Positions 32,741-47,708 of a stretch of DNA of 64,000 bases are shown here, piece by piece. The notes under the pieces are model-generated. The model made no database searches and was not told the DNA's origin. It saw nothing but the letters and a program-made list of their open reading frames with translations. Source of the DNA: Lachnospiraceae bacterium AB2028. GTDB taxonomy: Bacteria > Bacillota > Clostridia > Lachnospirales > Lachnospiraceae. The position numbers were made by a program, and so were the translations under genes. The stretch covers positions 62,001 through 126,000 of the forward strand of contig JHYJ01000007.1 of the NCBI GenBank assembly GCA_000621425.1, written 5' to 3'. Position 1 is the stretch's first letter. The number at the start of each line of letters is the position of its first letter.

Positions 32741-33520
32741 TCACTTCAATTTCTTTCCTAATGTTTCCAAAATATCAGCCTTTGTAGTTGATTTCAGAAT
32801 ATATCCGTCCGGTTTTAAACTCATGACACGGGATACAGCCTCTTTTGTTCCTATTCCTGTCAGGAATATAACAGGAATATGAGCCGTAGCTTCCTCCTGC
32901 CTGAGCATCTGCAACACCTGGGGCCCGTCAACCACAGGCATCTCGTAATCTAAAAGTATTAAGTCTACCTTTTCATCTTCAGGCACCTTCAAAAGGAAGG
33001 TGATAGCCTGCATGCCTGCAGTAACAATGTCTACCCGATATTTTTCCTTGATCCACTCACGTACCATTTTTGCGTATGAAGGATCATCATCAACTATCAG
33101 TATTCTTCTCTTCACGAATGCTGTCTCAGTCTTTTCCAGTTCCTCCGTAACAGTAGTTTCCAGCACCTTCATATCTACAGGGCGGTTTAGCCAGTTGTAA
33201 TTCCTAAGGTCGGGAATCTCACTGAGCAGGTCTTCATGATACTTTGCCTCGCCTATAACGATCATCTTCTGATTCCTGCTTGCGGCTGCCTCAACCATCA
33301 GGTGAAGTTTTTTCTTTTTCAACGGATCATCCATTATGTCCGCCGGAAGATACAGTATAAACAGAGCAATCCGTCCTGCCAGACGCCTTGCCTCATCTTC
33401 GAGATGCTCCGTAACCGTCGTTACCGAAAATTCCATATCAGACAGCTTTCTTTCTATGCCCTTTACAACAATGCTGTACTGGAACAACAGTATTGCTATT
33501 TCTTTTCCTGTTTCGCCCAT
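32741..33520 (-). CDS. response regulator with two receiver-like domains
   Basis: 259 residues from ATG 33520, eight bases after GGAGG; an ATG five codons upstream overlaps that site. Residues 1-120 look like a degenerate receiver (no phospho-acceptor Asp in the expected place). Residues 138-259 are a full receiver: acidic pair in ILIVDDDPSYAKM, phospho-Asp191 in LILLDYEMPVVDG, Thr in FLTGIG and Lys243 in YILK. There is no DNA-binding or enzymatic output domain. Last gene of the signalling operon, so it probably acts by protein contact or as a phosphate sink. Confidence 0.85.
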   Translation of the reverse strand: MGETGKEIAILLFQYSIVVKGIERKLSDMEFSVTTVTEHLEDEARRLAGRIALFILYLPADIMDDPLKKKKLHLMVEAAASRNQKMIVIGEAKYHEDLLSEIPDLRNYNWLNRPVDMKVLETTVTEELEKTETAFVKRRILIVDDDPSYAKMVREWIKEKYRVDIVTAGMQAITFLLKVPEDEKVDLILLDYEMPVVDGPQVLQMLRQEEATAHIPVIFLTGIGTKEAVSRVMSLKPDGYILKSTTKADILETLGKKLK

Positions 33521-33550
33521 AGATTTATCCTCCATATTTTTTTACGTTTT

Positions 33551-35074
33551 TTAGTTGTCTTCTTTTTGAACCATCCTGGCTGCTTCTTTTTGTATATCCG
33601 GGTCATATGAGAGCATAGGCTCCACATCATTCCCCTTTATCCTTCTTTCCGTGTAATTTCGCGTAAGCTTTATTATAAGCGGTGAAAGCACCAGCAGGCC
33701 TACCAGGTTCGGTATCATCATCAGGCCGTTAAAGGTATCCGAAATATCCCAGGCAAGGTTAGATTCCATAACGGCACCGAATACTATCAGCACCACAAAT
33801 ATCTGCCGGTAGATTTTTGCCACCTTCACGCCGAACAGATACTCAGTAACTTTGGCACCATAGTACGACCATCCCATTACCGTCGTAAATGCGAATAGGG
33901 TAATGGAGAATACCACAAACCATTCACCCGGTCGACCGAAATTCATTCCAAAAGCCTGTGCCACAAGGGTTGCATCATTCACTCCTTCTGCGGCAAGTCC
34001 GGTATTAAGGTCAATGGCTCCGGAGCTAAGCACTACAATGGCTGTCATGGTACATATTACCATAGTATCCAGAAAAACTTCAGCTATGCCCCACATTCCC
34101 TGTCTTACAGGCTCTCTGTTGCAGCTTGTACTATGAACCATAACCGATGATCCAAGTCCTGCTTCATTCGAAAACACTCCACGCTTGCAGCCGTTCTTTA
34201 TCGTATTAAAGGCAAGCTGTACTGCCGTGCCTGCCGCACCGCCCTTTATGGCAGCCGGACCAAGTGCAAACTTAAATACCGAAGCCAGAATAGCCGGCAC
34301 GCTGCTTATATTCATAACGATTATTGCCAGGCAGCCTGCCATGTAAACAATAGTCATAACCGGAACGATCGTTTCCGAAACAGCGCCAAGCCTTCTGTAT
34401 CCGCCCAAAAGTATCAGCGCTACCGCAAACATAAGAACGATGCCAATAGCCCAGTTGGCATTGTCAACGCCCATAAATTTTCCGGTATACACATCTGATA
34501 AAAATGCAGAGTGTACATTGATGGTGATCTTGTTTATCTGGCCCATATTGCCTATGCCAAAGGATGCCAGCACGGTAAAGACGCAGAACAGTATGCCCAG
34601 GCCCCTGCCTATCCTTTTACAGTGCTTTATTCCTCCCAGGCCATCCTGCAGGTAATACATAGGTCCGCCTGACCATGCACCGTCTATATTCCTGCGTCTA
34701 AAATATACACCAAGCAAATTCTCCGAGTACTTTACCATCATACCGAAAAATGCCGCAACCCACATCCAGAATACAGCCCCCGGACCGCCGACACATATAG
34801 CCGTAGAAACACCGGCAATATTTCCCGTTCCGATAGTGCCGCACAGTGCAGTACAGAATGCCCTAAAAGGCGACAAAGCGCCTGCATCATTGATAATACG
34901 CCCTTTTCCGTCGATCACCCCAAAAGTATTCTTCCACCAGTGCCATATATGCCTTATCTGGAAAAAACCCGTGATCAGGCTGCAAATGATACCGGTCCCT
35001 AAAAGCAAGGAAAGACCAAAAGTCCCCCAGGCAAATCCATTTAACGCTTCATTTATCTCTACTACAATTCCCAT
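33551..35074 (-). CDS. sodium:alanine/glycine symporter (AGCS family)
   Basis: 507 residues with about eleven membrane helices. AGCS signatures are clear: GALSPFRAFCTALCGTIGTGNIAGV (seen as two motifs), GGPGAVFWMWVAAFFGM, YSENLLGVYFR, GGPMYYL, and FSNEAGLGSSVMVHS. It imports Ala, Gly or related amino acids with Na+. It lies inside the phosphorelay operon (six bases after the DegV kinase stop and 30 before the receiver gene), which suggests that the relay senses or controls amino-acid uptake. Confidence 0.95.
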   Translation of the reverse strand: MGIVVEINEALNGFAWGTFGLSLLLGTGIICSLITGFFQIRHIWHWWKNTFGVIDGKGRIINDAGALSPFRAFCTALCGTIGTGNIAGVSTAICVGGPGAVFWMWVAAFFGMMVKYSENLLGVYFRRRNIDGAWSGGPMYYLQDGLGGIKHCKRIGRGLGILFCVFTVLASFGIGNMGQINKITINVHSAFLSDVYTGKFMGVDNANWAIGIVLMFAVALILLGGYRRLGAVSETIVPVMTIVYMAGCLAIIVMNISSVPAILASVFKFALGPAAIKGGAAGTAVQLAFNTIKNGCKRGVFSNEAGLGSSVMVHSTSCNREPVRQGMWGIAEVFLDTMVICTMTAIVVLSSGAIDLNTGLAAEGVNDATLVAQAFGMNFGRPGEWFVVFSITLFAFTTVMGWSYYGAKVTEYLFGVKVAKIYRQIFVVLIVFGAVMESNLAWDISDTFNGLMMIPNLVGLLVLSPLIIKLTRNYTERRIKGNDVEPMLSYDPDIQKEAARMVQKEDN

Positions 35075-35080
35075 CAGGCC

Positions 35081-38000
35081 CTAACCTTTCCTGAGCACTT
35101 CCAAAACGCCGTCATAATCATACTGGCCTGCCTTTTCGAGAACGGCCCCATATTTTTCCTTTTCGCTTTCAGGTATCGAATAGTCCTTCAGCTCATCAAA
35201 TATCTTATCCATTGCATCACAGTCCATGGCTTCAGCGGCTTCCGCAAGACCTTCATATACTCCCTGCATTAAATATTCGTCAGCAACAGGCTTGTCGGCA
35301 TCATCTTCCTTTTTCATGAAGGGACTGAGTACCGACTTATATGTCTGGTATTCTTCCAAAAACGCAGTATTATTAGCCTTGATGTAAGCAATATCATCTT
35401 CCTTGCCGGCCATTTCAAGCAAGCGGGCATTTTCAGAAAGTTCCATTGCGCCTATCAGTTTTGCTGAGCTTTTAAGGGCATGAACCTTTATCGTGTAATT
35501 TTTCCAGTCACCATTCTCATAGAAACGGGTCAGTTCAGCAGACTTATCATCTATTGAATCATAGAATATCTGAAGCACTGTCTTGAAGGCCTCTTCGGAC
35601 CCGCTGTTCTTAATGGCGATACTTCCGTCTATTCCGTCTATATTGTCATACCATTCAGAAGATTTTGTTTCATCCGTTTTTTCAGTATCAGGATAATCAG
35701 CATCTTCGATCACGGTTTCAGCATCACCCCGGTTCTCCTCATAGTGTTCCTCCTGCTCTTGCCCGTTGTCGAAGCTTTCCTCACCATGCCCATCCTCAAG
35801 AACAGTTTCGCCTACAAAGTATGAACCCAGATTATAAGACTTATTGGATTTAACAAAATAAAGTATGCCAATTGTTCCCGGGCCGCAGTTGGAAGATATG
35901 GCCGCTGATGCCTGCTTGAATATCACCCTTTCAAAATAGGCATGCTTGCTGACTTCTTCTTTGATCCACGCAAGCATATCAATCGGAACATCCACATATG
36001 TTATAAATACAACTTCCGGATCCGGTATTACATCAACAGGAAATGCTTTTGAGATATATTTTCTGTAAGCCCGCTTCCGGTCTCCCATCCATACTCCGCC
36101 AACCTTAACCTTATCATCAGATATCCTGATACAAGGATGCAGATTAAGGGCATGAGCCATACGGTCCATCCCGCCGCTTATGATCCCTCTTTTAGCCATG
36201 TATTCAGTCTGATCTATGACAAAGCTGCACTTCAGACGGTGTTTTACTGTTTCAAGCTCATCAACAATATCATCAACAGACATACCTGTCTGTACAAGCT
36301 TCTGCGCTATAAGAACCAGAATTCCCGCTGCTGATGAGATACCGCCAGAATTAATGACCTTCACATTATCAAACGCTTTCGCCGCTTCCGAAGCCCGCTT
36401 ATAATCTTCACTCATACCGGTAGTAATCGCGATATGGATAAGGTTATGAGCATGCTTAAGCGTGGAAGCGAAGAACTCCGTATAAGCCGCTTCATCCGGC
36501 GGGGCCGACTCAGCGTTCTTTCCTGCATTAATATAGCGTATCAGCTCATCAGAGCCCATCTGTACGCCATCCTTAAATATTCCCTCCTCAGTCCTTATCA
36601 TAAAAGGAAGAATCGAAATTCCCTGTTTCCTGACGATTGAATCCGGAATATCACACATACTGGTACAGGTAACTATAACCTGCATTTTACCGGAATGACT
36701 TGACGTAGCGTGAATATCCTCATTCGTGCCAATCATACGGCTGCCGCTTATAATCAGCTTTTCTCCGGAGATAAATCTTATCATCACTTTTTCCAGTGCA
36801 TCTCCGGATACCGGTTTTACTAAATGACCGTCAAAACCTGCGCGGTTATACAGTTCATGATTTTCTCCGCCGGCATTTGCGGTAAGTACTACAACAGGAG
36901 TATTTCGGTTTAATCCTCCCGACTGCATACGCAGCCGCTCCATACACTCGATGCCATCCATTTCCGGCATAAGGTGATCCATGAGGATAACATCATAATG
37001 GTACCGCAGAGAAAAATCCAGCGCATCCCTGCCGCTTAATGCTTTATCAATGGTGACACCGGAATCTGCCAGCAGTCGGCTCTCCACTTCAAGGTTCATC
37101 TCATTATCGTCCACTATGAGTATGCGGGCCTCGGGAGCATGGAAGCTGCACTCATACTTTGTACGGTCCGCAATGTTCTGATTATGTATATTCACTTCAC
37201 CGATCTTTGTGGCACCAGAAACACCCTGCATAACAGAAAATGTAAATGTAGAACCTTCACCGTAAACACTGCTTACACTGATAGTGCCCCCCATAAGTTC
37301 TGCCAGCTGTTTTACAATAGACAATCCCAGTCCGGTACCTTCTATATGACGGTTCTTCTCCTCATCAACCCGCTTGAATACATCAAAAAGATAGGGCAGT
37401 GCCTCTTTCTTGATTCCCATTCCGGTATCACTTACAGAAATAGTCAGCTCAACAGCATCATCGCCTTTTGCCTCGCTTTCCACACGAAGCTCAATGGTTC
37501 CGGAAGCCGTATACTTTACGGCATTATTCAGAAGATTAAGTACCACCTGCTTTATACGGACCTCATCACCATACAGCACAGCCGGTACATCCGGATCCAC
37601 TATCACATTAAGTTTCAGATCTTTTTCATTAGCCCGGTACCAGATCATATTCACCAACTCAGAAAGAATATCCGCTACCTTATAATCTACGGGAACAATA
37701 TCCATGCCGCCGGCTTCCATCTTGGAAAAATCCAGAATGTCATTGATTATTGCAAGCAGCATCTTGCCGGAGCCCTGTATTCCGTTTGCATCCTTAACAA
37801 TTTCATCTGATGCATCCGGCTCCCTAAGTATCAGCTCATTCAGACCCAGAATAGAATTAATAGGAGTACGGATCTCATGGCTCATGCTAGAGAAAAAGCG
37901 GTTCTGTGCCCGGGTCAGTTCCTCTGCTTTATCAGCCGCATCACGCGCCCTCTTATTCTCACCCTTATAAAGCCTGTTCTGAAACCAGGTCATGGCAAAA

Positions 38001-38524
38001 CAGATAACACCCACCATTACAAGCGAAAGATATGAGTCAACATAGAACATTTCCTTTGAATGTTCATAGATCAGCTCCGGATAGTAGTAATTCACAAGAT
38101 AGAAAACAAGTGATTCGATTACTAACAGAACCAGCATCACATTTCGCCAGTTCCCCACAAGGACAAGGCCGACATAGATAAAACCGAAAATAAACCACAG
38201 CACGCCGCCGCCATGCAGACCGCCGCCAAAGAAAAACAGTCCCGGAAGAATCAGGAATATAAGCGTTAAAACGGTGATCTTGGTAACAAGACCGATTTTA
38301 TTTCTTTTCAATCCTATATAGTCTACGACAGGGACAAAAATAAGCGTTGCTATCAGCACTATATTTTCTATGGGGTTCTCATTCATTATAAGATCCCCGA
38401 TAAGTGCAAAAAACACCACTACCTCCGATATTATGGAAAGGCCAAGATAAACACGCTCGGAAAATTCCCATTCCGGATCCTTTATCACATTGATCAGACT
38501 TTTTACGAAACTTTTGTTATCCAT
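35081..38524 (-). CDS. hybrid sensor kinase with receiver, DegV domain and Hpt
   Basis: 1147 residues in this order: membrane region with about six helices (25-182); HisKA with phospho-His216 in SSMSHEIRTPINSILG; HATPase (N-box 330-334, GTGLGLS 397-402); receiver (465-582, phospho-Asp516 in VILMDHLMPEMDG, Lys570); a DegV-type domain (614-905); acidic linker; Hpt with His1015 in VHALKSSAKLIGA; and a 70-residue helical tail. The DegV part shows the family layout (CDIPDSIVRKQGISILPFMI, INSGGISSAAGILVLIA, AKRGIISGG, CGPGTIGILYF), but several lipid-contact positions differ: GMSEDY replaces the usual LSGTY, and Asn879 sits where a His precedes TGPG. Start overlaps the upstream kinase stop (TAATG). 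Confidence 0.88.
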   Translation of the reverse strand: MDNKSFVKSLINVIKDPEWEFSERVYLGLSIISEVVVFFALIGDLIMNENPIENIVLIATLIFVPVVDYIGLKRNKIGLVTKITVLTLIFLILPGLFFFGGGLHGGGVLWFIFGFIYVGLVLVGNWRNVMLVLLVIESLVFYLVNYYYPELIYEHSKEMFYVDSYLSLVMVGVICFAMTWFQNRLYKGENKRARDAADKAEELTRAQNRFFSSMSHEIRTPINSILGLNELILREPDASDEIVKDANGIQGSGKMLLAIINDILDFSKMEAGGMDIVPVDYKVADILSELVNMIWYRANEKDLKLNVIVDPDVPAVLYGDEVRIKQVVLNLLNNAVKYTASGTIELRVESEAKGDDAVELTISVSDTGMGIKKEALPYLFDVFKRVDEEKNRHIEGTGLGLSIVKQLAELMGGTISVSSVYGEGSTFTFSVMQGVSGATKIGEVNIHNQNIADRTKYECSFHAPEARILIVDDNEMNLEVESRLLADSGVTIDKALSGRDALDFSLRYHYDVILMDHLMPEMDGIECMERLRMQSGGLNRNTPVVVLTANAGGENHELYNRAGFDGHLVKPVSGDALEKVMIRFISGEKLIISGSRMIGTNEDIHATSSHSGKMQVIVTCTSMCDIPDSIVRKQGISILPFMIRTEEGIFKDGVQMGSDELIRYINAGKNAESAPPDEAAYTEFFASTLKHAHNLIHIAITTGMSEDYKRASEAAKAFDNVKVINSGGISSAAGILVLIAQKLVQTGMSVDDIVDELETVKHRLKCSFVIDQTEYMAKRGIISGGMDRMAHALNLHPCIRISDDKVKVGGVWMGDRKRAYRKYISKAFPVDVIPDPEVVFITYVDVPIDMLAWIKEEVSKHAYFERVIFKQASAAISSNCGPGTIGILYFVKSNKSYNLGSYFVGETVLEDGHGEESFDNGQEQEEHYEENRGDAETVIEDADYPDTEKTDETKSSEWYDNIDGIDGSIAIKNSGSEEAFKTVLQIFYDSIDDKSAELTRFYENGDWKNYTIKVHALKSSAKLIGAMELSENARLLEMAGKEDDIAYIKANNTAFLEEYQTYKSVLSPFMKKEDDADKPVADEYLMQGVYEGLAEAAEAMDCDAMDKIFDELKDYSIPESEKEKYGAVLEKAGQYDYDGVLEVLRKG

Positions 38525-40572
38525 TATGCCTGACCTCCCTTCCCTCTTACCGTTCCGGAAAGTTCATGCAGCATTACCCTTTCAAAATCCGCAATATTAA
38601 TGGGTTTTGCAATAAAGCCGTCAAAGCCTTCCTGCATAAACATTTCTCTTGCACCGGAAACAGCATTTGCAGTAAGGGCGATAACTATAACCTTTTTATT
38701 CTGTTCGCTGGCTATGGCCTTGATCCATTTCATAGTTTCCACGCCATCCATCTCCGGCATCATATGATCCATGAAGACGACATCATAATCATTATCCCTG
38801 AATTTGCTGATGGCTTCCTTTCCGCTTCCTGCAGTTTCAATTATCATTTCGTATTCGCTAAAGAGTCCTGTTGCCACCACCAGGTTCATAGGCTCATCGT
38901 CTACAACCAGCGCTTTCACATTCCTGAATACAGGCCTTTCGCTCTGTGTCGCATCTTCAAGACTTCCCACATCAGTTCCTTCATTCAAAACCTTGATCAA
39001 ATGATAGGCATAAAGCGGCTTAGGAATTATCAGAACCCTGCTGCCGGCACCGGGCTTAAATCCCGGAGCCGCTGCCACAGCAACTACAACTTTCCCCTTG
39101 CTAAGCTCATCAAAATATTCCGGATTATCTTCATATTCACTCTGCCCCATAAATATAAATGAGACATCAAGTTTTTTCCTCAGATGTTCAATTTCCTTAA
39201 TGTTCTGCGCAGAATAAAGGGGAACGTGTATTCCCGTTGCGAGATTGGTAGCCATATAACGGTAAAAATCACGCACCCTGGGAACCTGATACTTATCCAT
39301 CCTGACATGGAAAAGAATATCTCCAGAAAAAGTCCCAGAAGGCATAAGGCACGGCGTCTTATCAGTAACTTTCTGAGGCAATGTGACACGCACAGTAGTT
39401 CCTGTATTCAGTTCACTTTCAATCTTTACGAAACCGCCCATACGGTGAGCAAAACCATACACTATAAACAGTCCTAAGCCTATTCCGCCTGAACTCCTGT
39501 TTCTTTTTTTATTAACCTGATACATTCCCTGGGACAGGGAGGCGATTGCCTTTCTGTCCATGCCTATGCCGGTATCAGTCATCTCAATGCACAGATTCAC
39601 GCCGTAATCCGTTTCCTCTGCAAACATTTTCACGTAGATACCGCCACGCCTGGTGAACTTCACTGCATTCTCCAGAAGATGCCTGAATATCTTATGGATC
39701 TTTTTGATATCGCCATACATCTTGGTCGGAACCATCGGATCCATATCAACAACAAGCTCCAGATTTTTCTCATTCTCCAGTAGTCGGAAACTGGTTACCA
39801 CATCATTGATCAGTGATGTGCTCATATAATCATTTTCCTCAAGTATGACCTTGTTGCGCTTGCATTCCGTATAATCCTGAATATCCTCTATCTGATAAGC
39901 TAACCTCATGCCTGCAGTTTTGATGGAAACGGCCTCTTCCCCCACATCCTTTTTCATGAGCATTTCAGACATACCGTTTACTACATTTACAGGAGTTCGG
40001 AGTTCATGAGAAATATTTGTGAGAAAGTCTTCCATATCCGCATCTACAGTTTCTATCCGTTCATCTTTTTCCACTTCGGACTGCATCCTTTCAGCCCTGT
40101 CCTTAACTATTCTTACACAGCAGAAATAAACCAGCAGAACAACGCTGACGTGCAGAATTATCTTCGCATTATCAAGTCTATTGAAATCATAAGTAGAATG
40201 GCTTATGGCAAGAAATAACTGCGTGAAAAGAAGGATGAAAAATTCCGTCAGAAAAGTATTCAGCATATAAATACTGTTAACAAACGAAAATACCGCAAGC
40301 GCATACACTATTACAACCGCTATATCAAATAAACTGGTTTCATGAACACCGTGATAAAAAATTGCCAAAACGGCATAGATAAAATAGCAGACCTTGCGAA
40401 TCCCTGATGACGGCTGGCCCATAATCTGCATTATCCATAGGCCTACCGTTGCAATGACAATCAGTGGCGGCACCCAGAATTCCCATCCCATAAGGATGCT
40501 CACGGCCGCAAGCCCCAGTCCGCCGGGTGATATCAGCATCAACAGAAGTCTTTCATTTTTTTTCTGATCCAT
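38524..40572 (-). CDS. membrane hybrid histidine kinase
   Basis: 682 residues. Six membrane helices (10-155) with little outside, then HisKA with phospho-His189 in NISHELRTPVNVVNG, HATPase (ENAVKFT 301-307, DTGIGM 333-338, GGIGLGLF 362-369), a degenerate receiver-like domain (about 415-535, lacking the phospho-Asp), and a full receiver (552-675) with Asp602 in VVFMDHMMPEMDG. Its membrane domain could sense a small lipophilic or membrane signal. It is in the middle of the six-gene signalling operon and shares a stop/start overlap with the DegV kinase. Confidence 0.9.
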   Translation of the reverse strand: MDQKKNERLLLMLISPGGLGLAAVSILMGWEFWVPPLIVIATVGLWIMQIMGQPSSGIRKVCYFIYAVLAIFYHGVHETSLFDIAVVIVYALAVFSFVNSIYMLNTFLTEFFILLFTQLFLAISHSTYDFNRLDNAKIILHVSVVLLVYFCCVRIVKDRAERMQSEVEKDERIETVDADMEDFLTNISHELRTPVNVVNGMSEMLMKKDVGEEAVSIKTAGMRLAYQIEDIQDYTECKRNKVILEENDYMSTSLINDVVTSFRLLENEKNLELVVDMDPMVPTKMYGDIKKIHKIFRHLLENAVKFTRRGGIYVKMFAEETDYGVNLCIEMTDTGIGMDRKAIASLSQGMYQVNKKRNRSSGGIGLGLFIVYGFAHRMGGFVKIESELNTGTTVRVTLPQKVTDKTPCLMPSGTFSGDILFHVRMDKYQVPRVRDFYRYMATNLATGIHVPLYSAQNIKEIEHLRKKLDVSFIFMGQSEYEDNPEYFDELSKGKVVVAVAAAPGFKPGAGSRVLIIPKPLYAYHLIKVLNEGTDVGSLEDATQSERPVFRNVKALVVDDEPMNLVVATGLFSEYEMIIETAGSGKEAISKFRDNDYDVVFMDHMMPEMDGVETMKWIKAIASEQNKKVIVIALTANAVSGAREMFMQEGFDGFIAKPINIADFERVMLHELSGTVRGKGGQA

Positions 40573-40594: not shown

Positions 40595-41935
40595 TCAGGG
40601 CCCCTCATTAAAGTCAATAGTATCAGCATTATGCCTTATCTCAAACAATGCGGAATACTCCGTCTTTTCCCACTTAGCCATAATACGGCCCACTACTATG
40701 TCCACAGCTTCCTGGCCCATCTCCGGAAGCATCAGGAAGAACATGTTCTGCCTGCTCTGAAAAATGATATCCGTTCTGCGCAGGCTTTCCTGAAGTATTT
40801 CTCCAAAACACATGACTGCATCCGCAAGCTGGGCTTCACCGGATTTCACATCAACGGAGAAAAGCATCTTGCAGGCCCTTGACTTATATCTTTTCAGGAA
40901 ACGGACAATGAAACGGTAGTTTGCCGAAAAAGCATCCTGTCCAAGGATCATGGCCCCCTTTCCTGCTCCTCGCTCCTCTACGAGCCTCGTGACTCGAATC
41001 AGTTCCCTTCCCAGATCATTATCAGAATCCTCTACGTCCGTATGCGAACTGTACACTTCATAGCCGTGTTTCCCGTTCTGCTTCACCCTATACAGACTGC
41101 TGTCGGCGTACTGAAAAAGTATATGATAATCTGTACCGAATTCAGGCACGAAAACAACACCGGCAGATATCCCCAAAGGGATTCCGAAATCCTCTCCCAT
41201 AAGCTTTTCCGCTTCCGATGTCAGAAGGTCATTGAGCCTGTTTACAAGATCCTCAATATGGCTCACTTCTTCCATCCCATTCATGAATAGCATGAATTCG
41301 TCACCGCCTATCCTGCTGGCAACATCATTCTCCCTGATACTGCGCCGCACGATGCCGGAAAAAGCCCCTAGCACCTTATCGCCCATATCATGCCCGTAGA
41401 GATCATTTACAAGCTTAAAGCTGTCAAGATCCAGCACAATAAGGGCACCTGTACTTTTTTCGCACAGGGCTGAAATCTTTTCTGTTCCGCTGCTCTTATT
41501 TAAAATCCCGGTAAGCTTATCTATAGATGCTTCTTCGACCAGGTTTTCAATCATCCTGCCGTTTTTTACTGTGTTATTGATACGGCTGATTAAGATTTCC
41601 CTGTCAAACGGCTTTCTTATGAAATCCGATGCACCCGCAGCCAGGCCGCGTCTTTCGGTTTCTGCATCTTCATCACCTGTAAGAAAGATTACGGGCGTAG
41701 GAATCCTATCCAGATTTTTCTCCTGTTCCCTTAAAAGCCTTAAAGCCTCAAACCCATCCATTTCGGGCATCATAATATCCAGAAGTATCAGATCCGGCTC
41801 ATTCTTTTCCATGAACCTGAGCATATCCTGACCGGACCTCATACAGGATACTTTCATACCCTGCGATGTCAGCAATTTCCTTGCATTTGTAAGGCTCAGG
41901 GCCTCATCATCCACTACTGCGATCCATTCCTGCAT
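40595..41935 (-). CDS. response regulator diguanylate cyclase (REC-GGDEF plus C-terminal domain)
   Basis: 446 residues. Receiver 1-122 with phospho-Asp53 in DLILLDIMMPEMDG. GGDEF 135-300 with DLDSFKLVNDLYGHDMGD and an intact RIGGDEF at 209-214; an RxxD product-inhibition site (RENDVA) lies five residues before it. Residues 320-446 form a further domain (AMILGQDAFSANYRF, FLLMLPEMGQEAVDIVV-like) that looks like a degenerate cyclase fold without catalytic residues. It is likely the c-di-GMP output of the neighbouring kinases. Confidence 0.92.
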   Translation of the reverse strand: MQEWIAVVDDEALSLTNARKLLTSQGMKVSCMRSGQDMLRFMEKNEPDLILLDIMMPEMDGFEALRLLREQEKNLDRIPTPVIFLTGDEDAETERRGLAAGASDFIRKPFDREILISRINNTVKNGRMIENLVEEASIDKLTGILNKSSGTEKISALCEKSTGALIVLDLDSFKLVNDLYGHDMGDKVLGAFSGIVRRSIRENDVASRIGGDEFMLFMNGMEEVSHIEDLVNRLNDLLTSEAEKLMGEDFGIPLGISAGVVFVPEFGTDYHILFQYADSSLYRVKQNGKHGYEVYSSHTDVEDSDNDLGRELIRVTRLVEERGAGKGAMILGQDAFSANYRFIVRFLKRYKSRACKMLFSVDVKSGEAQLADAVMCFGEILQESLRRTDIIFQSRQNMFFLMLPEMGQEAVDIVVGRIMAKWEKTEYSALFEIRHNADTIDFNEGP

Positions 41936-41937
41936 CG

Positions 41938-44781
41938 TTAAATCCCCTCTTCTTTTGACAAAAGACTCACAATACCATCATAATCATATTGTGTGTATGC
42001 TTCCTCAAGCTTTTCGTATAATTCAGCATCCTTCTGCGGTATGCTGTAAGCATCCATCTCTTTGAAAACTCCCTCCAGCCGGTCACAGTCCATTTCCTCC
42101 GCAGCCGCCCTTATCTCTTCGAATACTTCGGTCATAATAGTTTCATCCGCCTCAGGCTTATCAGAAACGTTATCCCCATTTCCTACGATAGCATTGAGTA
42201 TGCCTGCAAAATTTCTGTATTCCGCCATAAAGTCACTATGGTGTCCGCGAATATATACTATGTCCTCACCCTTGCCGGCATCCTCAAGCTTCTGCGCCTT
42301 TTCACCGAATTCTGCCGCTCCTATGATCCTGGCAGAACTCTTCAGTGCATGCACCTTTATCGTGTAGCTCTTGTAATCCCCGGCATCATAATAATTATCC
42401 AATTCCTCCGCCTTCTCATCTATGGAATCATAGAACATTTTCAAAAGCACACGGTACGATGCCTCATCTCCGCTGTTGCTGATTCCCTTTAAAACATCTA
42501 CATTTGCATTTGCAAGTTCTGCCATATCTTCCGGAACAGACAATGTTTCTTTTTTTTCAGCATCTTCATCGTCTGCCCTGTTTACGATTATCTTTTCAGC
42601 CGGAATATAGCGGACAAGCATGTTCTCCAGTTCTTCAGAGTCTATGGGTTTGGAAAGATAATCATCAAAACCTGCCTCAAGATTTTTTTCCCTGGCTCCC
42701 GATATCGCATTAGCTGTCAGGCATACTGCCGGAACAGCCGAATTAGGATTCTCCTCATCTTCCTTTATGTCACGGAGAGTCTCTATGCCATCCTTCACAG
42801 GCATCATATGGTCTAAGAAAAGCATGTCATATCTGTTTTCCTTGGAAAGTGCAACACCCTCTACGCCATCATTTGCCGTATCAACACGCATTCCCAGCAG
42901 CTTGACCAGGCTCTTAAAGACTGTAAGGTTCATGGGATTGTCATCCACCACAAGAATGCGTGCATAAGGAGCTATGAAGCGCTCCTTATAACGATCCTTT
43001 TTTTCAAGATGCTCCCTATATGAAGCCTCGTAATCCCCGATAGGCGCCCAATCCTTTACATTCTGCTTTATCTCAAAACTAAAGCATGACCCCTCACCGT
43101 ATACGCTTTCTATCTCAAGCTCAGAGTCCATCAGATCAAGCAGATTTGCCGTGATATTCATGCCAAGACCAGTGCCTTCGATATGCCTGTTGCGGCTTTC
43201 CTCGATACGCACAAACTTGGAAAACAGCTTTTCTATATCCTCTTCCTTTATGCCTATGCCTGTATCCTTTACCGATACCTTAAGAAGAATGGAATCGTCC
43301 CCGGCTTTTTCGTATCCAACCGATAATAAGACGCTGCCCTTTTCCGTGTATTTGATGGCATTGGTCAGCAGGTTCATTATTACCTGCTTTACACGAAGCT
43401 CATCTCCCACCAGGTGCTTGGGTATGTCATTATCAATTTCAAGCTTAAATAACAACCCCTTTTTATCAGCCCGTAAGTGCACCATGTTTACTATATCGCT
43501 TATGGTGGCTGAAAGATCATATTCCGCAGGATTTATCTCCAGCTTGCCTTCCTCGATCTTTGAAAAATCAAGAATATCATTAATGAGTCCAAGCAGATTT
43601 TTACCCGCTGTCCTGATATTCTCCGAATAATAAATTACCTGCTTGTCATCGCTCTCCCTTAAGATCATCTCGTTCATGCCCAGAATTGCATTTATGGGGG
43701 TGCGTATCTCGTGGGACATGTTTGAAAGAAAGGCTGACTTTGCCTCGTTTGCGGCAATAGCTGTTGCTGACATATGAAGATACCTGCCGGACCTTCCCAT
43801 GATAACGCCGATTATGATGATCGTTACAATGACCGCCGAAATGGTAGCAATAAGGATTCCGTTTAATGAACCGAAAACACTTGTTGCATCCTTTACGGAA
43901 ATGCAGTACCATCCGTTCTGAATTTCTGCAACATATACAATGTAATACGCGCCGTTGTGTTTGAATTCAAAAGAATTACCTTCCATCGTCTCCAGACGGC
44001 TGACTATAGCTGCACCAAGAGTACCGTTTTCTTCGAAATAATTTTTTCCGTTTTCAGCTGCATCGGAATGTGCTACTACAGTACCTTTGTCATTGAGTAT
44101 CATTTCTATGTCGGAATAACCGCTTGCAACAGCGTCTTCCGTAAGTTTCTGTACCTGGTCAAGGGACACATCCACAGAAATAACACTCACTCCATCACAG
44201 AGTGTCTTTCCAAGGGCAAGCATGACATTCCCGGACTGCACATCCACATAAGGATCTAACATCGTGATCTCCCCGGGATGTTCCATGGGCTTTGTGTACC
44301 AGGGACGGATCAGGGGATCGTAGTCTTCAGGCGGAACCCAGTTGGTACCGCTGAAAAACCTGCCGTTGATATAACCATACAGGCCGGTGGAATTTTCCAT
44401 AACAGCGCTCTTTATGGCAGTAGACTGATCCACAAGGAAAACCTGTATCTCTTCATCACTTCTCTTTTCCTCTATCATCCCGTCCAGGGTATATGCGGAA
44501 AGCTTTATGGAATCAATATTGGTGGAAAGATATTTGTCCAGCTGCTCTGCCGACTCCATTGCAGCCAATTCACCTTCCCTAATGATATTCTCACGCTTTT
44601 CATTGTAGAGCATGCTGTAGTACAGTATGATAATGCCCGCGAAAAAAACGATTACCAGAATGGTGACTATAATGTTCCTTACGGTAAGATTGATTCCTTC
44701 TTTATCTTTCTGACCACCAAGTGTTTTCATGCCTATTTGCCAACACCCTTTATATAATTTATATCTATCTAAAAGAGACAT
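41938..44781 (-). CDS. Cache-domain hybrid histidine kinase with Hpt
   Basis: 947 residues: membrane helix 35-57, extracytoplasmic double-Cache sensor (63-300; YDPLIRPWYTKPMEHPGEI and LDPYVDVQSGNVML are typical), membrane helix 305-330, HisKA with His357 in LSNMSHEIRTPINAILG, HATPase (GTGLGMN 537-542), receiver with Asp657 in LFLDHMMPVKDG, Hpt with His811 in KVHALKSSARIIGA, and a 70-residue C-terminal helical tail shared with the DegV kinase. The Cache domain suggests an extracellular small-molecule signal such as an amino acid or acid. First gene of the operon; promoter upstream. No strong ribosome site before the ATG. Confidence 0.93.
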   Translation of the reverse strand: MSLLDRYKLYKGCWQIGMKTLGGQKDKEGINLTVRNIIVTILVIVFFAGIIILYYSMLYNEKRENIIREGELAAMESAEQLDKYLSTNIDSIKLSAYTLDGMIEEKRSDEEIQVFLVDQSTAIKSAVMENSTGLYGYINGRFFSGTNWVPPEDYDPLIRPWYTKPMEHPGEITMLDPYVDVQSGNVMLALGKTLCDGVSVISVDVSLDQVQKLTEDAVASGYSDIEMILNDKGTVVAHSDAAENGKNYFEENGTLGAAIVSRLETMEGNSFEFKHNGAYYIVYVAEIQNGWYCISVKDATSVFGSLNGILIATISAVIVTIIIIGVIMGRSGRYLHMSATAIAANEAKSAFLSNMSHEIRTPINAILGMNEMILRESDDKQVIYYSENIRTAGKNLLGLINDILDFSKIEEGKLEINPAEYDLSATISDIVNMVHLRADKKGLLFKLEIDNDIPKHLVGDELRVKQVIMNLLTNAIKYTEKGSVLLSVGYEKAGDDSILLKVSVKDTGIGIKEEDIEKLFSKFVRIEESRNRHIEGTGLGMNITANLLDLMDSELEIESVYGEGSCFSFEIKQNVKDWAPIGDYEASYREHLEKKDRYKERFIAPYARILVVDDNPMNLTVFKSLVKLLGMRVDTANDGVEGVALSKENRYDMLFLDHMMPVKDGIETLRDIKEDEENPNSAVPAVCLTANAISGAREKNLEAGFDDYLSKPIDSEELENMLVRYIPAEKIIVNRADDEDAEKKETLSVPEDMAELANANVDVLKGISNSGDEASYRVLLKMFYDSIDEKAEELDNYYDAGDYKSYTIKVHALKSSARIIGAAEFGEKAQKLEDAGKGEDIVYIRGHHSDFMAEYRNFAGILNAIVGNGDNVSDKPEADETIMTEVFEEIRAAAEEMDCDRLEGVFKEMDAYSIPQKDAELYEKLEEAYTQYDYDGIVSLLSKEEGI

Positions 44782-44966: not shown

Positions 44967-45689
44967 ATGAATAAGAGATTAAATAAAAAGGGCTTTACCC
45001 TGGTGGAGCTGATAGTAGTGCTGATTATTCTGGCATTACTGGCTGCTATACTGATTCCCACACTTATAGGATATATAGATAAAGCAAGGGATGGCAGATA
45101 TCTTTCCAATGCCAAAGCCTGCAAGGATGCAGCACAGGCAAAATTTGTGGAACAGTATGGCATGAACGGAGAAGTACTGCCTGATTACCCTATTGTTTCC
45201 GGTCTTACTGTCGGAGTAGAAACAAGCGGAGCAGACAAAGGAAAATGCAAAAGCAATAACGGCGATCTGGACCTTGTATACAATGCATTTGCAAAGGATG
45301 TTCTTTCTATGGCCGGTGTAGACCCCTATTTCTTCATGGTGGCAGTCGGAAGCAATCAGGCTAAAATTAACAGAGACACAGAATCTCCCGGGCTCCCCAT
45401 GTCCACCTTTGATAAATATACTGTGTACTACGCTGTATATATTGAAACCGAGAAGGCAAGACCCTGGTATTATTATAACGGAGAATGGACCACCACAAGT
45501 CCGAGATTCGACGTCAATGGAAAGAAAACTTTCAACGGAAACAATGTTGTTATGTCCGGCCCCCTGAAAGACAAAAGATTGCAGTACTATCTGATTGCAA
45601 ATAAAAACAAGAAATTTCCTTCCTCCCCCGACAACCAGGACAAAACATTTACTCCCAATTTTTGGAACTGGCTTAATGCTATGAAATAG
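44967..45689 (+). CDS. type IV pilin-like protein
   Basis: 240 residues. Class III prepilin signal: MNKRLNKKG then FTLVELIVVLIILALLAAIL, with cleavage expected between Gly9 and Phe10 and Glu5 of the mature chain present. The mature domain (about 200 residues) has Trp/Tyr-rich C-terminal motifs and two Cys in the N-terminal half (Cys51, Cys92 approximately). No prepilin peptidase, ATPase or inner-membrane assembly genes are in this window, so machinery must be elsewhere. It is monocistronic with its own terminator and diverges from the signalling operon. Confidence 0.88.
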   Translation: MNKRLNKKGFTLVELIVVLIILALLAAILIPTLIGYIDKARDGRYLSNAKACKDAAQAKFVEQYGMNGEVLPDYPIVSGLTVGVETSGADKGKCKSNNGDLDLVYNAFAKDVLSMAGVDPYFFMVAVGSNQAKINRDTESPGLPMSTFDKYTVYYAVYIETEKARPWYYYNGEWTTTSPRFDVNGKKTFNGNNVVMSGPLKDKRLQYYLIANKNKKFPSSPDNQDKTFTPNFWNWLNAMK

Positions 45690-45860: not shown

Positions 45861-47708
45861 ATGCACAACAAAAAAATACTCGCACTACTATTATCCGCCG
45901 CTTTAGGTTTATGTACCATCGGCTGTACCGATATAACAAATGAGAATACAGATCCGTCAAATGGCGCATCTTCCATGTCAGAAAAAGGCGCCGGAGCCGT
46001 CATAGAATTTGATAATGTCAGGAACACCCCCTATGATGAAGATGCAATAAAGAATGCCTACCTTAACTATTCCTTTGACCTATACGGAAAGACCGTCGCT
46101 AAAGGCGGGGAAAATGAGAATATCCTGATCTCCCCCACATCAGCCTTCATTGCACTGGAAATGACCGCTGCCGGAGGAAGAGGCACCACCCTGGATGAGA
46201 TGAGCGGACTGCTTAAGGGCCTGGATCCCGTAGAGCCGATGGAAGTCCAGCATTTTGCCATTGACTATCACGACACGCTCAACAACGCAAAGGGAGTAGA
46301 GCTCCATTCAGCAAATTCCATATGGCTCAACTCCACCATTCTTACCGGAAAGATTAACAAAGATTTCACAGACTATGTTAATGACAGCTATCAGGCAGAG
46401 ATAAATGAATCCGCTTTTGGCTCTAATACCATAGATGAAATAAACGGCTGGATTGATGATAACACGAACCATATGATTCCCACCGTCATTCAGGAACTTG
46501 ATCCGTTAGCCGCTGCGGTACTTGTAAACGCCCTGGCATTTGAAGGTAAATGGGCTGAACCTTACGAAGATTATCAGGTACACGAAAACGATTTCACAAA
46601 TGCTGCCGGCGAAAGCGAAGATGCACTCTACCTTGCAGGAACATGTGATACCTACTTTGAGTCAGGCAAGGCCATCGGATTCATGAAACCGTACTACGGC
46701 AATGATTACGCATTCCTTGCCATACTCCCCAAGGAAAAGATAGACGCCAATGACTTCATGGCAGGTTTCTCCGCTGATGATTACCGCGAGTTTTATGACA
46801 GCAAGACAATGGACCGGGATGTACGCACCATAATCCCTAAGTTCAGCTATGATTATGAGTATCTCATGAACGATACACTGAAAGAAATGGGGATTAACGC
46901 CGCACTTTCCCCTGAGGATGCGGATTTTTCAAACATCGCAGAATTAAAAGATGAAAACCTGTACATAACTAAGGTAATACATAAAACACACATTGAGCTT
47001 GACCAGTACGGCACCAAAGCCGCTGCAGCCACCGTTGTGGAGATGGATAGGGCAATGGCTGTCGCAGGGTCGGAAGAATACAAGGAAGTCTACCTGGACC
47101 GTCCCTTTGCCTATGCAATAATAGATGTGGAAACCGGTGTTCCGGTTTTTATCGGCACTGTAAACAGTGTTGATGGAATGGCTGATCAGGACACAGACGG
47201 AACCGACGATGTACTGCCTGATGATGACACAGATGAAGATGACGAAACACCTGAACCCGTAGCTGACTTCGAGCCTGCCGATCCCAGATTTGCTTTCGAA
47301 ACAAAGGACATATACGGAAATACCGTAAGCGACGATATTTTCTCACAGTATGACGTCACTGTAGTCAATGTATGGGGAACCTTCTGTTACTACTGCATAG
47401 TGGAAATGCCGGAGCTCCAGGAATGGTATGAATCCCTGCCTTCCAATGTAAACATAATAGGTGTAGTCTGCGACATACAGGACGAAAACGACTCCTACTA
47501 TATCAGCGAGGCTCAGAGCATTGTAAAAGATACCGGCGTCACTTACACAAACCTTATTCCCAAGGACGGGCTTGCAAATCTTATGTATGAGGTTACTGCA
47601 GTTCCCACTACCTACTTCATAGACAGGGAAGGCAATGTGGTCGGCAGCACGGTATATGGTGCCGATATGGACGCTTATAAGCGCGAAGTCGAGAAACTGT
47701 TGAAATAA
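45861..47708 (+). CDS. serpin fused to TlpA-like thioredoxin, lipoprotein
   Basis: 615 residues. Signal peptide with a lipobox-like end at Cys22 (CTIGC). Residues 55-435 are a serpin (NILISPTSAFIALEMTAAGGRGTT split, LVNALAFEGKWAEPY, LDRPFAYAIIDVETGVPVFIG). The reactive loop has the short-residue hinge GTKAAAATVV (384-393) typical of inhibitory serpins, with the scissile bond probably around Arg397-Met399. After an Asp-rich linker (438-470), residues 475-615 form a TlpA/ResA-like thioredoxin domain with WGTFCYYCIVEMPEL (Cys509, Cys512) and cis-Pro in AVPTTYF. This fusion is unusual. It should act outside the membrane as protease inhibitor and thiol-disulfide carrier. First of three plus-strand genes. 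Confidence 0.9.
   Translation: MHNKKILALLLSAALGLCTIGCTDITNENTDPSNGASSMSEKGAGAVIEFDNVRNTPYDEDAIKNAYLNYSFDLYGKTVAKGGENENILISPTSAFIALEMTAAGGRGTTLDEMSGLLKGLDPVEPMEVQHFAIDYHDTLNNAKGVELHSANSIWLNSTILTGKINKDFTDYVNDSYQAEINESAFGSNTIDEINGWIDDNTNHMIPTVIQELDPLAAAVLVNALAFEGKWAEPYEDYQVHENDFTNAAGESEDALYLAGTCDTYFESGKAIGFMKPYYGNDYAFLAILPKEKIDANDFMAGFSADDYREFYDSKTMDRDVRTIIPKFSYDYEYLMNDTLKEMGINAALSPEDADFSNIAELKDENLYITKVIHKTHIELDQYGTKAAAATVVEMDRAMAVAGSEEYKEVYLDRPFAYAIIDVETGVPVFIGTVNSVDGMADQDTDGTDDVLPDDDTDEDDETPEPVADFEPADPRFAFETKDIYGNTVSDDIFSQYDVTVVNVWGTFCYYCIVEMPELQEWYESLPSNVNIIGVVCDIQDENDSYYISEAQSIVKDTGVTYTNLIPKDGLANLMYEVTAVPTTYFIDREGNVVGSTVYGADMDAYKREVEKLLK

Follow-up and report, generated by a model that had tools for sequence, protein, structure and literature searches.

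DegV/FakB proteins are fatty-acid carriers for phospholipid synthesis. What is such a protein doing inside a sensor kinase? This question is raised by a gene of a rumen bacterium (Lachnospiraceae bacterium AB2028), located in a stretch of 64,000 nucleotides (contig JHYJ01000007.1, positions 62,001 to 126,000) that was analysed as a whole and is called the window here. The gene encodes a hybrid histidine kinase (HK) with a DegV domain embedded between a receiver (REC) and a histidine phosphotransfer (Hpt) domain. We lean slightly towards a model in which the embedded domain is a FakB-derived cytoplasmic ligand sensor in a dedicated two-kinase relay, which shares one Hpt and usually controls cyclic di-GMP (c-di-GMP).

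Domain layout of the DegV kinase

Read on the plus strand, 35081-38524 contains many stop codons, and the minus strand holds a single open reading frame (ORF) of 1147 amino acids. The original prediction had named no strand, and its residue numbers match the minus-strand protein, which is organised as follows:

35081-38524, minus strand: DegV hybrid kinase, 1147 amino acids, with six transmembrane helices followed by HisKA, HATPase_c, REC, DegV and Hpt (ORF and Pfam)
37913-38524, minus strand: N-terminal six-helix membrane domain and signalling helix, residues 1-204 (predicted model)
37709-37909, minus strand: HisKA with phospho-His H216 at 37877-37879 (Pfam, residues 206-272)
37232-37570, minus strand: HATPase_c (Pfam, residues 319-431)
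36788-37123, minus strand: receiver domain with Asp D516 at 36977-36979 (Pfam Response_reg, residues 468-579)
35795-36685, minus strand: DegV/FakB-fold domain, residues 614-910 (Pfam DegV, residues 621-890, and AlphaFold2 model)
35354-35644, minus strand: Hpt with phospho-His H1015 at 35480-35482, the sole Hpt of the kinase pair described below (Pfam, residues 983-1043)

The Pfam order HisKA, HATPase_c, Response_reg, DegV and Hpt bears out the predicted enclosure of DegV by a complete hybrid kinase. With the acceptors H216, D516 and H1015 all present, the protein has the make-up of an unorthodox hybrid kinase and resembles the HK-REC-Hpt proteins of the ArcB, BarA and TorS type in domain order and conserved phospho-acceptors. 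In contrast to these, DegV lies between REC and Hpt and a second, Hpt-less kinase adjoins; its scores lie far below the equivalog cut-offs.

The DegV domain itself was confirmed by family and by fold. Pfam DegV (PF02645) was matched significantly by the entire domain (profile positions 7-278 of 280; E 4.2e-37; 128 bits, cut-off 27), and the NCBIfam DegV model TIGR00762 scored 138.9 against a cut-off of 99.7. An AlphaFold2 model of residues 614-910, calculated from an alignment of 34 related sequences, reached a mean predicted local distance difference test (pLDDT) of 92.4 and a predicted template modelling score (pTM) of 0.90, and reproduced the anticipated two-domain DegV (EDD) fold. Using VIA-align, the top 29 solved entries were all DegV/FakB proteins with Z values of 28-33, the closest being 1pzx (Z 33.4) and FakB2 (4x9x, Z 32.8, root-mean-square deviation 2.1); DhaQ and DhaK came next at about 17. 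Weak structure matches to DhaM/EIIA had prompted the idea of an EIIA-Man-like phospho-carrier, which was abandoned because Asn replaces the family-diagnostic His and an Hpt is already encoded in the operon.

No Pfam family matched the N-terminal membrane domain (residues 1-204), for which the predicted structure is a confident six-helix model. Its best solved match (37913-38524) was the membrane domain of the adenylyl cyclase Rv1625c (Foldseek probability 1.00, template modelling score 0.59, E 0.011), which may point to a membrane-receptor fold in common with class III cyclases. At this score and E value the match is too weak, and an Rv1625c-type identity was not adopted.

Ligand-site residues of kinase-linked DegV domains

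Ser93, Thr61 and His266 reportedly hold the fatty-acid carboxylate, as described by Broussard in 2016. FakB2 positions were mapped through an alignment to the 4x9x sequence, and 145 DegVs that are fused or operon-linked to kinases were compared with 26 stand-alone DegVs. All stand-alone proteins (26/26) have kept Thr61, Ser93, Arg170 and His266, whereas the window domain carries S673 (=T61), S705 (=S93), I781 (=R170) and N879 (=H266). These changes are shared by most linked DegVs: position 266 is Asn in 136 of 145 and His in a single one, Thr61 is replaced by Ser in 134, and Ser93 is retained in 131. Arg170 is present in 36 of the 145 and has been lost in class A, which includes the locus of the window. 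Asp13, Asp40, Phe157 and Gly268 remain conserved, and the hydrophobic positions of the stand-alone proteins are mostly maintained (71 kept, 11 lost).

The Asn for His before the GPG motif, noted in the original prediction, is therefore real and far from private to this protein. The predicted exchange of LSGTY for GMSEDY was half right: the motif has changed, yet S705 preserves the functional Ser of FakB2 (Ser93). What had been described as altered ligand-site residues in one protein turned out to be a set of head-group-site changes conserved as a clade-wide signature.

In FakB1, Arg173 (FakB2 170) is essential for phosphorylation and not for fatty-acid exchange, the R173A variant being inactive in the Fak assay and still able to exchange, and Arg205 (FakB2 202) binds FakA and the membrane (PMC9136124). 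The window domain has Ile781 at the first position and Asn879 in place of His266, a reported member of the carboxylate hydrogen-bond network. The motif around the second position is replaced: the Lys (K198) of the KxYRG patch was found in 0 of 145 linked DegVs, which have hydrophobic residues instead, in a loop whose alignment is uncertain by 1-2 columns. At the place of the KxYRG-like residues of stand-alone proteins, class A domains show a strongly conserved WxG motif. On the changes at Arg170, KxYRG and His266, the reading as a working Fak subunit was rejected.

Compared with FakB/DegV proteins, the window domain thus retains the fold, Ser93, a hydroxyl at position 61, the hydrophobic core and the GxG loop, and differs in its link to kinases and in Asn266, Ser61 and the lost KxYRG patch and Arg170. 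Judged from the sequences, the clade-wide changes apparently remove the chemistry of the fatty-acid kinase FakA rather than the binding fold, as would be expected if a carrier had become a binding module that is not consumed. In a further difference from FakB, the single Dak2/FakA-type protein of the genome is encoded away from the DegV kinase. As the genome also has three stand-alone DegVs, besides a second fused copy, an ordinary Fak system probably coexists.

Pairing of two kinases around a single Hpt

The DegV kinase is one half of a pair. Its start codon overlaps the stop codon of the upstream partner by 1 nucleotide (TAATG):

38524-40572, minus strand: partner hybrid kinase, 682 amino acids, with transmembrane region, HisKA, HATPase_c, unassigned region and REC, without Hpt (Pfam)

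Wherever the contig reached far enough, a same-strand hybrid kinase was found immediately upstream of the DegV kinase, and in the first 35 loci (numbered with the prefix L) it was homologous to the partner in the window. The gap between the two genes has a median of -4 bp and is at most 4 bp in 84% of cases. Only two copies of the partner's N-terminal membrane domain exist in the AB2028 genome, each beside a DegV kinase. In L173 the upstream kinase ORF was missing from the automatic table, and a six-frame check gave HK, REC and Hpt upstream. The mirror-tree correlation between DegV and the partner kinase was 0.81, for which shared descent accounts as well as interaction does. Two side observations concern the pair. 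L190:5290-7878 (plus strand) encodes an HK-DegV protein of 862 amino acids with no REC match. The automatic table shows no kinase upstream of it, and the locus may break the pairing rule. Within the partner, about 140 residues between HATPase_c and REC (38923-39345, minus strand) are without a Pfam match and are possibly a degenerate receiver.

In the class to which the window locus belongs, the DegV kinase ends with the Hpt, and in the other large class the partner does. Of 128 distinct complete pairs, 79 have it on the DegV protein, 43 on the partner and 6 on neither, and no pair has it on both; the pairs are related, so that this count is not to be taken as a probability. The six pairs could be followed up individually. 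An Hpt is encoded immediately behind the DegV stop in L045 and L076. The partner's copy in L056 is without the phospho-His, and an intact Hpt is present there in a third gene. L159 contains a tandem duplicate and L172 a split gene, and in both an Hpt kinase lies one gene further up. Only L046 is left without an Hpt; there the DegV kinase continues into the N-terminal half of a REC264-type protein (the 264-residue receiver protein listed below), which may reflect a genuine deletion fusion or a join made in assembly. The third-gene Hpt protein of L056 (7564-8541, minus strand) has 325 amino acids and stands next to the pair with the Hpt-like partner tail. In L046 (7952-11275, plus strand) the replacement of the Hpt by the REC264-type half links the REC264 protein to the system.

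In the tree, DegV proteins that carry the Hpt turn up in no fewer than two distinct places, and additional rearrangements are seen in L056 and in L045/L076. This one-Hpt pattern is most naturally read as two proteins serving one relay. Very probably, a single shared Hpt is fed by two membrane kinases, whose membrane domains may be additional sensors.

Distribution and history of the linked DegV domains

The architecture recurs in other genomes. Fused proteins of relatives in the genus are 46-97% identical, and an assembly artefact can be dismissed because the fusion also occurs in isolates, among them Butyrivibrio sp. VCD2006, NC2007 and XPD2002. A profile of the fused DegV domains was searched in 397 sampled genomes of the family Lachnospiraceae. 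High-scoring copies (>249 bits), mostly in long ORFs, were detected in about 74 of them, while stand-alone proteins mostly scored below 232 bits; genome G227 has one more divergent fused copy at 198 bits. The named loci belong to Butyrivibrio and other, mainly rumen, Lachnospiraceae and include isolates. At the order level, high-scoring copies occurred in two genomes of another, sister family, and no fused copy was seen outside the family of the window in a phylum-wide genome sample.

Not every linked DegV is fused. L184, L187 and L188 encode a free DegV of about 290 amino acids adjoining an HK-REC-Hpt protein, and the latter two are minimal operons of the order HK-REC-Hpt, DegV, REC-GGDEF. 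L179 and L186 have a DegV-Hpt protein adjoining an HK-REC protein, and a protein of 1578 amino acids in L177 (3308-8044, minus strand) shows the permuted order DegV-dCache-HK-REC-Hpt beside an Hpt-less partner kinase. In a tree calculated with a quick method, after removal of the four signature columns, the linked DegVs form one clade (Shimodaira-Hasegawa-like approximate likelihood ratio test 98) in which the free DegVs are basal. This suggests that a free DegV came first, was then fused to the second kinase and later received the Hpt from the partner, an order that is not proven because the root position matters.

Outputs and neighbouring genes

The genes next to the pair in the window are:

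40595-41935, minus strand: REC-GGDEF response regulator with intact GGDEF motif, the likely output (Pfam)
41938-44781, minus strand: third kinase, HK-REC-Hpt with its own Hpt and, by eye, a Cache-like N-terminus (Pfam; in some class A loci only)
33551-35074, minus strand: sodium:alanine symporter (AGCS), 6 bp downstream of the DegV kinase (Pfam; recurrent in class A loci)
32741-33535, minus strand: REC protein, 264 amino acids, with unassigned N-terminal half and REC (recurrent in classes A and B)

In most operons with the Hpt on the partner, the receiver protein directly upstream of the pair is REC-HD-GYP, REC-GGDEF or both, and in one group of these operons it is a lone REC of about 120-134 amino acids. 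In class B operons, the pair is flanked by a GGDEF-EAL and a GAF-GGDEF protein. An AGCS symporter gene is also found near the system of L172 and lies inside the operon in many class A loci.

Proposed mechanism and alternatives

From the observed domains, pairing, one-Hpt rule, signature, clade and neighbouring outputs, we infer the ligand, the phosphotransfer route and the direction of control as follows. The DegV domain descends from FakB-type carriers; it keeps their fold, hydrophobic core and two head-group hydroxyls and has lost residues for FakA docking and phosphorylation. It may bind an acyl-chain-like ligand in the cytoplasm without turnover, and its occupancy would be signalled to the kinase pair, in trans if DegV is free and in cis if it is fused. 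The pair consists of two adjacent hybrid kinases, an HK-REC partner and an HK-REC-DegV protein, with the Hpt on either or occasionally on a third protein. Phosphate from both kinases would converge on this shared Hpt and then reach response regulators encoded alongside, usually REC-GGDEF or REC-HD-GYP, so that the relay would set the c-di-GMP level. Among the available readings, a role as sensor suits an embedded FakB-fold domain best, and we consider it reasonably likely that DegV acts as a ligand-binding input. There is about an even chance that the ligand is an acyl chain of some kind. The output of the system is probably c-di-GMP in the main, the firmest cases being receiver-linked enzymes within tight operons.

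Several observations weigh against this model. A c-di-GMP enzyme was present in 73 of 140 operons (200-bp rule), about half. A lone REC serves as output in part of the family, so that c-di-GMP is not universal, and with 47 GGDEF matches in the 3.48-Mb genome of AB2028 some proximity is expected by chance. As the third kinase in the operon of the window has its own Hpt, the rule of one Hpt is true of the pair and not of the whole operon. The Asn for His266 and the loss of Arg170 could mean a non-fatty-acid ligand, or none, and the role of DegV could be that of an output or a scaffold.

The sensor might respond to another lipid-like ligand, for example an acyl-amide, a monoacylglycerol or a lipid-linked signal, a variant compatible with the proposed model that we regard as possible, if somewhat unlikely. 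The coordinated changes of His to Asn and Thr to Ser would fit it, as would the loss of Arg170 in class A, but Asn is still able to hydrogen-bond a carboxylate and the loss of the arginines, taken alone, is explained by escape from FakA. It is unlikely that DegV is a ligand-free scaffold which pairs the kinases or positions the shared Hpt. Such a role would agree with a DegV that stays constant while other modules move and that can carry the Hpt alone (DegV-Hpt), and with the strong conservation of WxG in class A at the KxYRG-like site of stand-alone proteins; against it, the positions at the pocket mouth are fixed to specific residues (Asn266, Ser61, Ser93) without drift, and the hydrophobic core has been kept. 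Quite improbable is a DegV that serves as the output, its lipid binding, delivery or sequestration being controlled by phosphorylation of REC or Hpt. DegV does lie C-terminal to REC, the usual place of an output, and the native role of FakB is that of a carrier. However, the FakA-contact residues for docking and phosphorylation are lost, which makes a contribution of DegV to the known acyl-phosphate pathway unlikely; REC-GGDEF, REC-HD-GYP or lone REC outputs are already present in the operons; and in L187 and L188 DegV is a separate protein without its own REC, beside HK-REC-Hpt and REC-GGDEF. A chance fusion or assembly artefact without function has a negligible probability: most copies come from metagenome-assembled genomes, but this reading is ruled out by the isolates, the distribution over about 75 of 397 family genomes and the range of identities in the genus, and a single clade with a common signature.

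Comparison with known systems

The kinases of the Pseudomonas LadS/GacS network are encoded by unlinked genes. Several of them converge on one phosphorelay system (PMC4866733). The system described here would be similar in that multiple kinases share one Hpt, as judged from the genes, and differs in that the kinases are an operonic pair and the Hpt has repeatedly changed protein. A second precedent is DhaQ (2iu4), whose EDD fold matched the DegV-domain model with a Z of 17.6. This dihydroxyacetone-related protein is an EDD-fold relative of a kinase subunit that has been reused as a regulator; it acts on transcription, whereas the DegV domain is part of a phosphorelay.

The components (DegV, hybrid kinase, Hpt and GGDEF) are known, and the architecture may well be contained in domain databases. 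In a search of the open-access literature, partly limited to titles and abstracts, no paper joining DegV, histidine kinase and c-di-GMP was found, nor a description of the combination, of a FakB-derived module without FakA chemistry or of the division of one Hpt between operonic kinases. Tentatively, and at somewhat less than an even chance, we propose a new signalling class: a heteromeric two-kinase relay with a single, evolutionarily mobile Hpt, gated by a FakB descendant that the fatty-acid kinase can no longer phosphorylate, through which c-di-GMP would respond to free fatty acid in the cytoplasm or to a different acyl ligand.

To our knowledge, intracellular lipid sensors outside transcription factors are poorly known in Gram-positive bacteria. 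If the model is correct, a FakA-free DegV clade joined to a phosphorelay would be such a dedicated sensor. Dietary fatty acids affect the growth of rumen and gut Lachnospiraceae, and the system would tie lipid status to the c-di-GMP life-style switch in these bacteria. The kinase pairs also represent a natural experiment in dividing one phosphorelay between proteins, the Hpt having moved several times and being on both in none of the complete pairs examined.

Further genes in the window

Two genes on the plus strand were recorded besides the kinase operon. At 44967-45689, divergent from it, lies the gene of a lone type IV prepilin-like protein with an N-methylation motif, no search for other pilus genes having been made. 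The ORF at 45861-47708 encodes a lipoprotein-like protein with the unusual pairing of a complete serpin (Pfam E 1e-74) and a C-terminal thioredoxin-like domain (AhpC/TSA).

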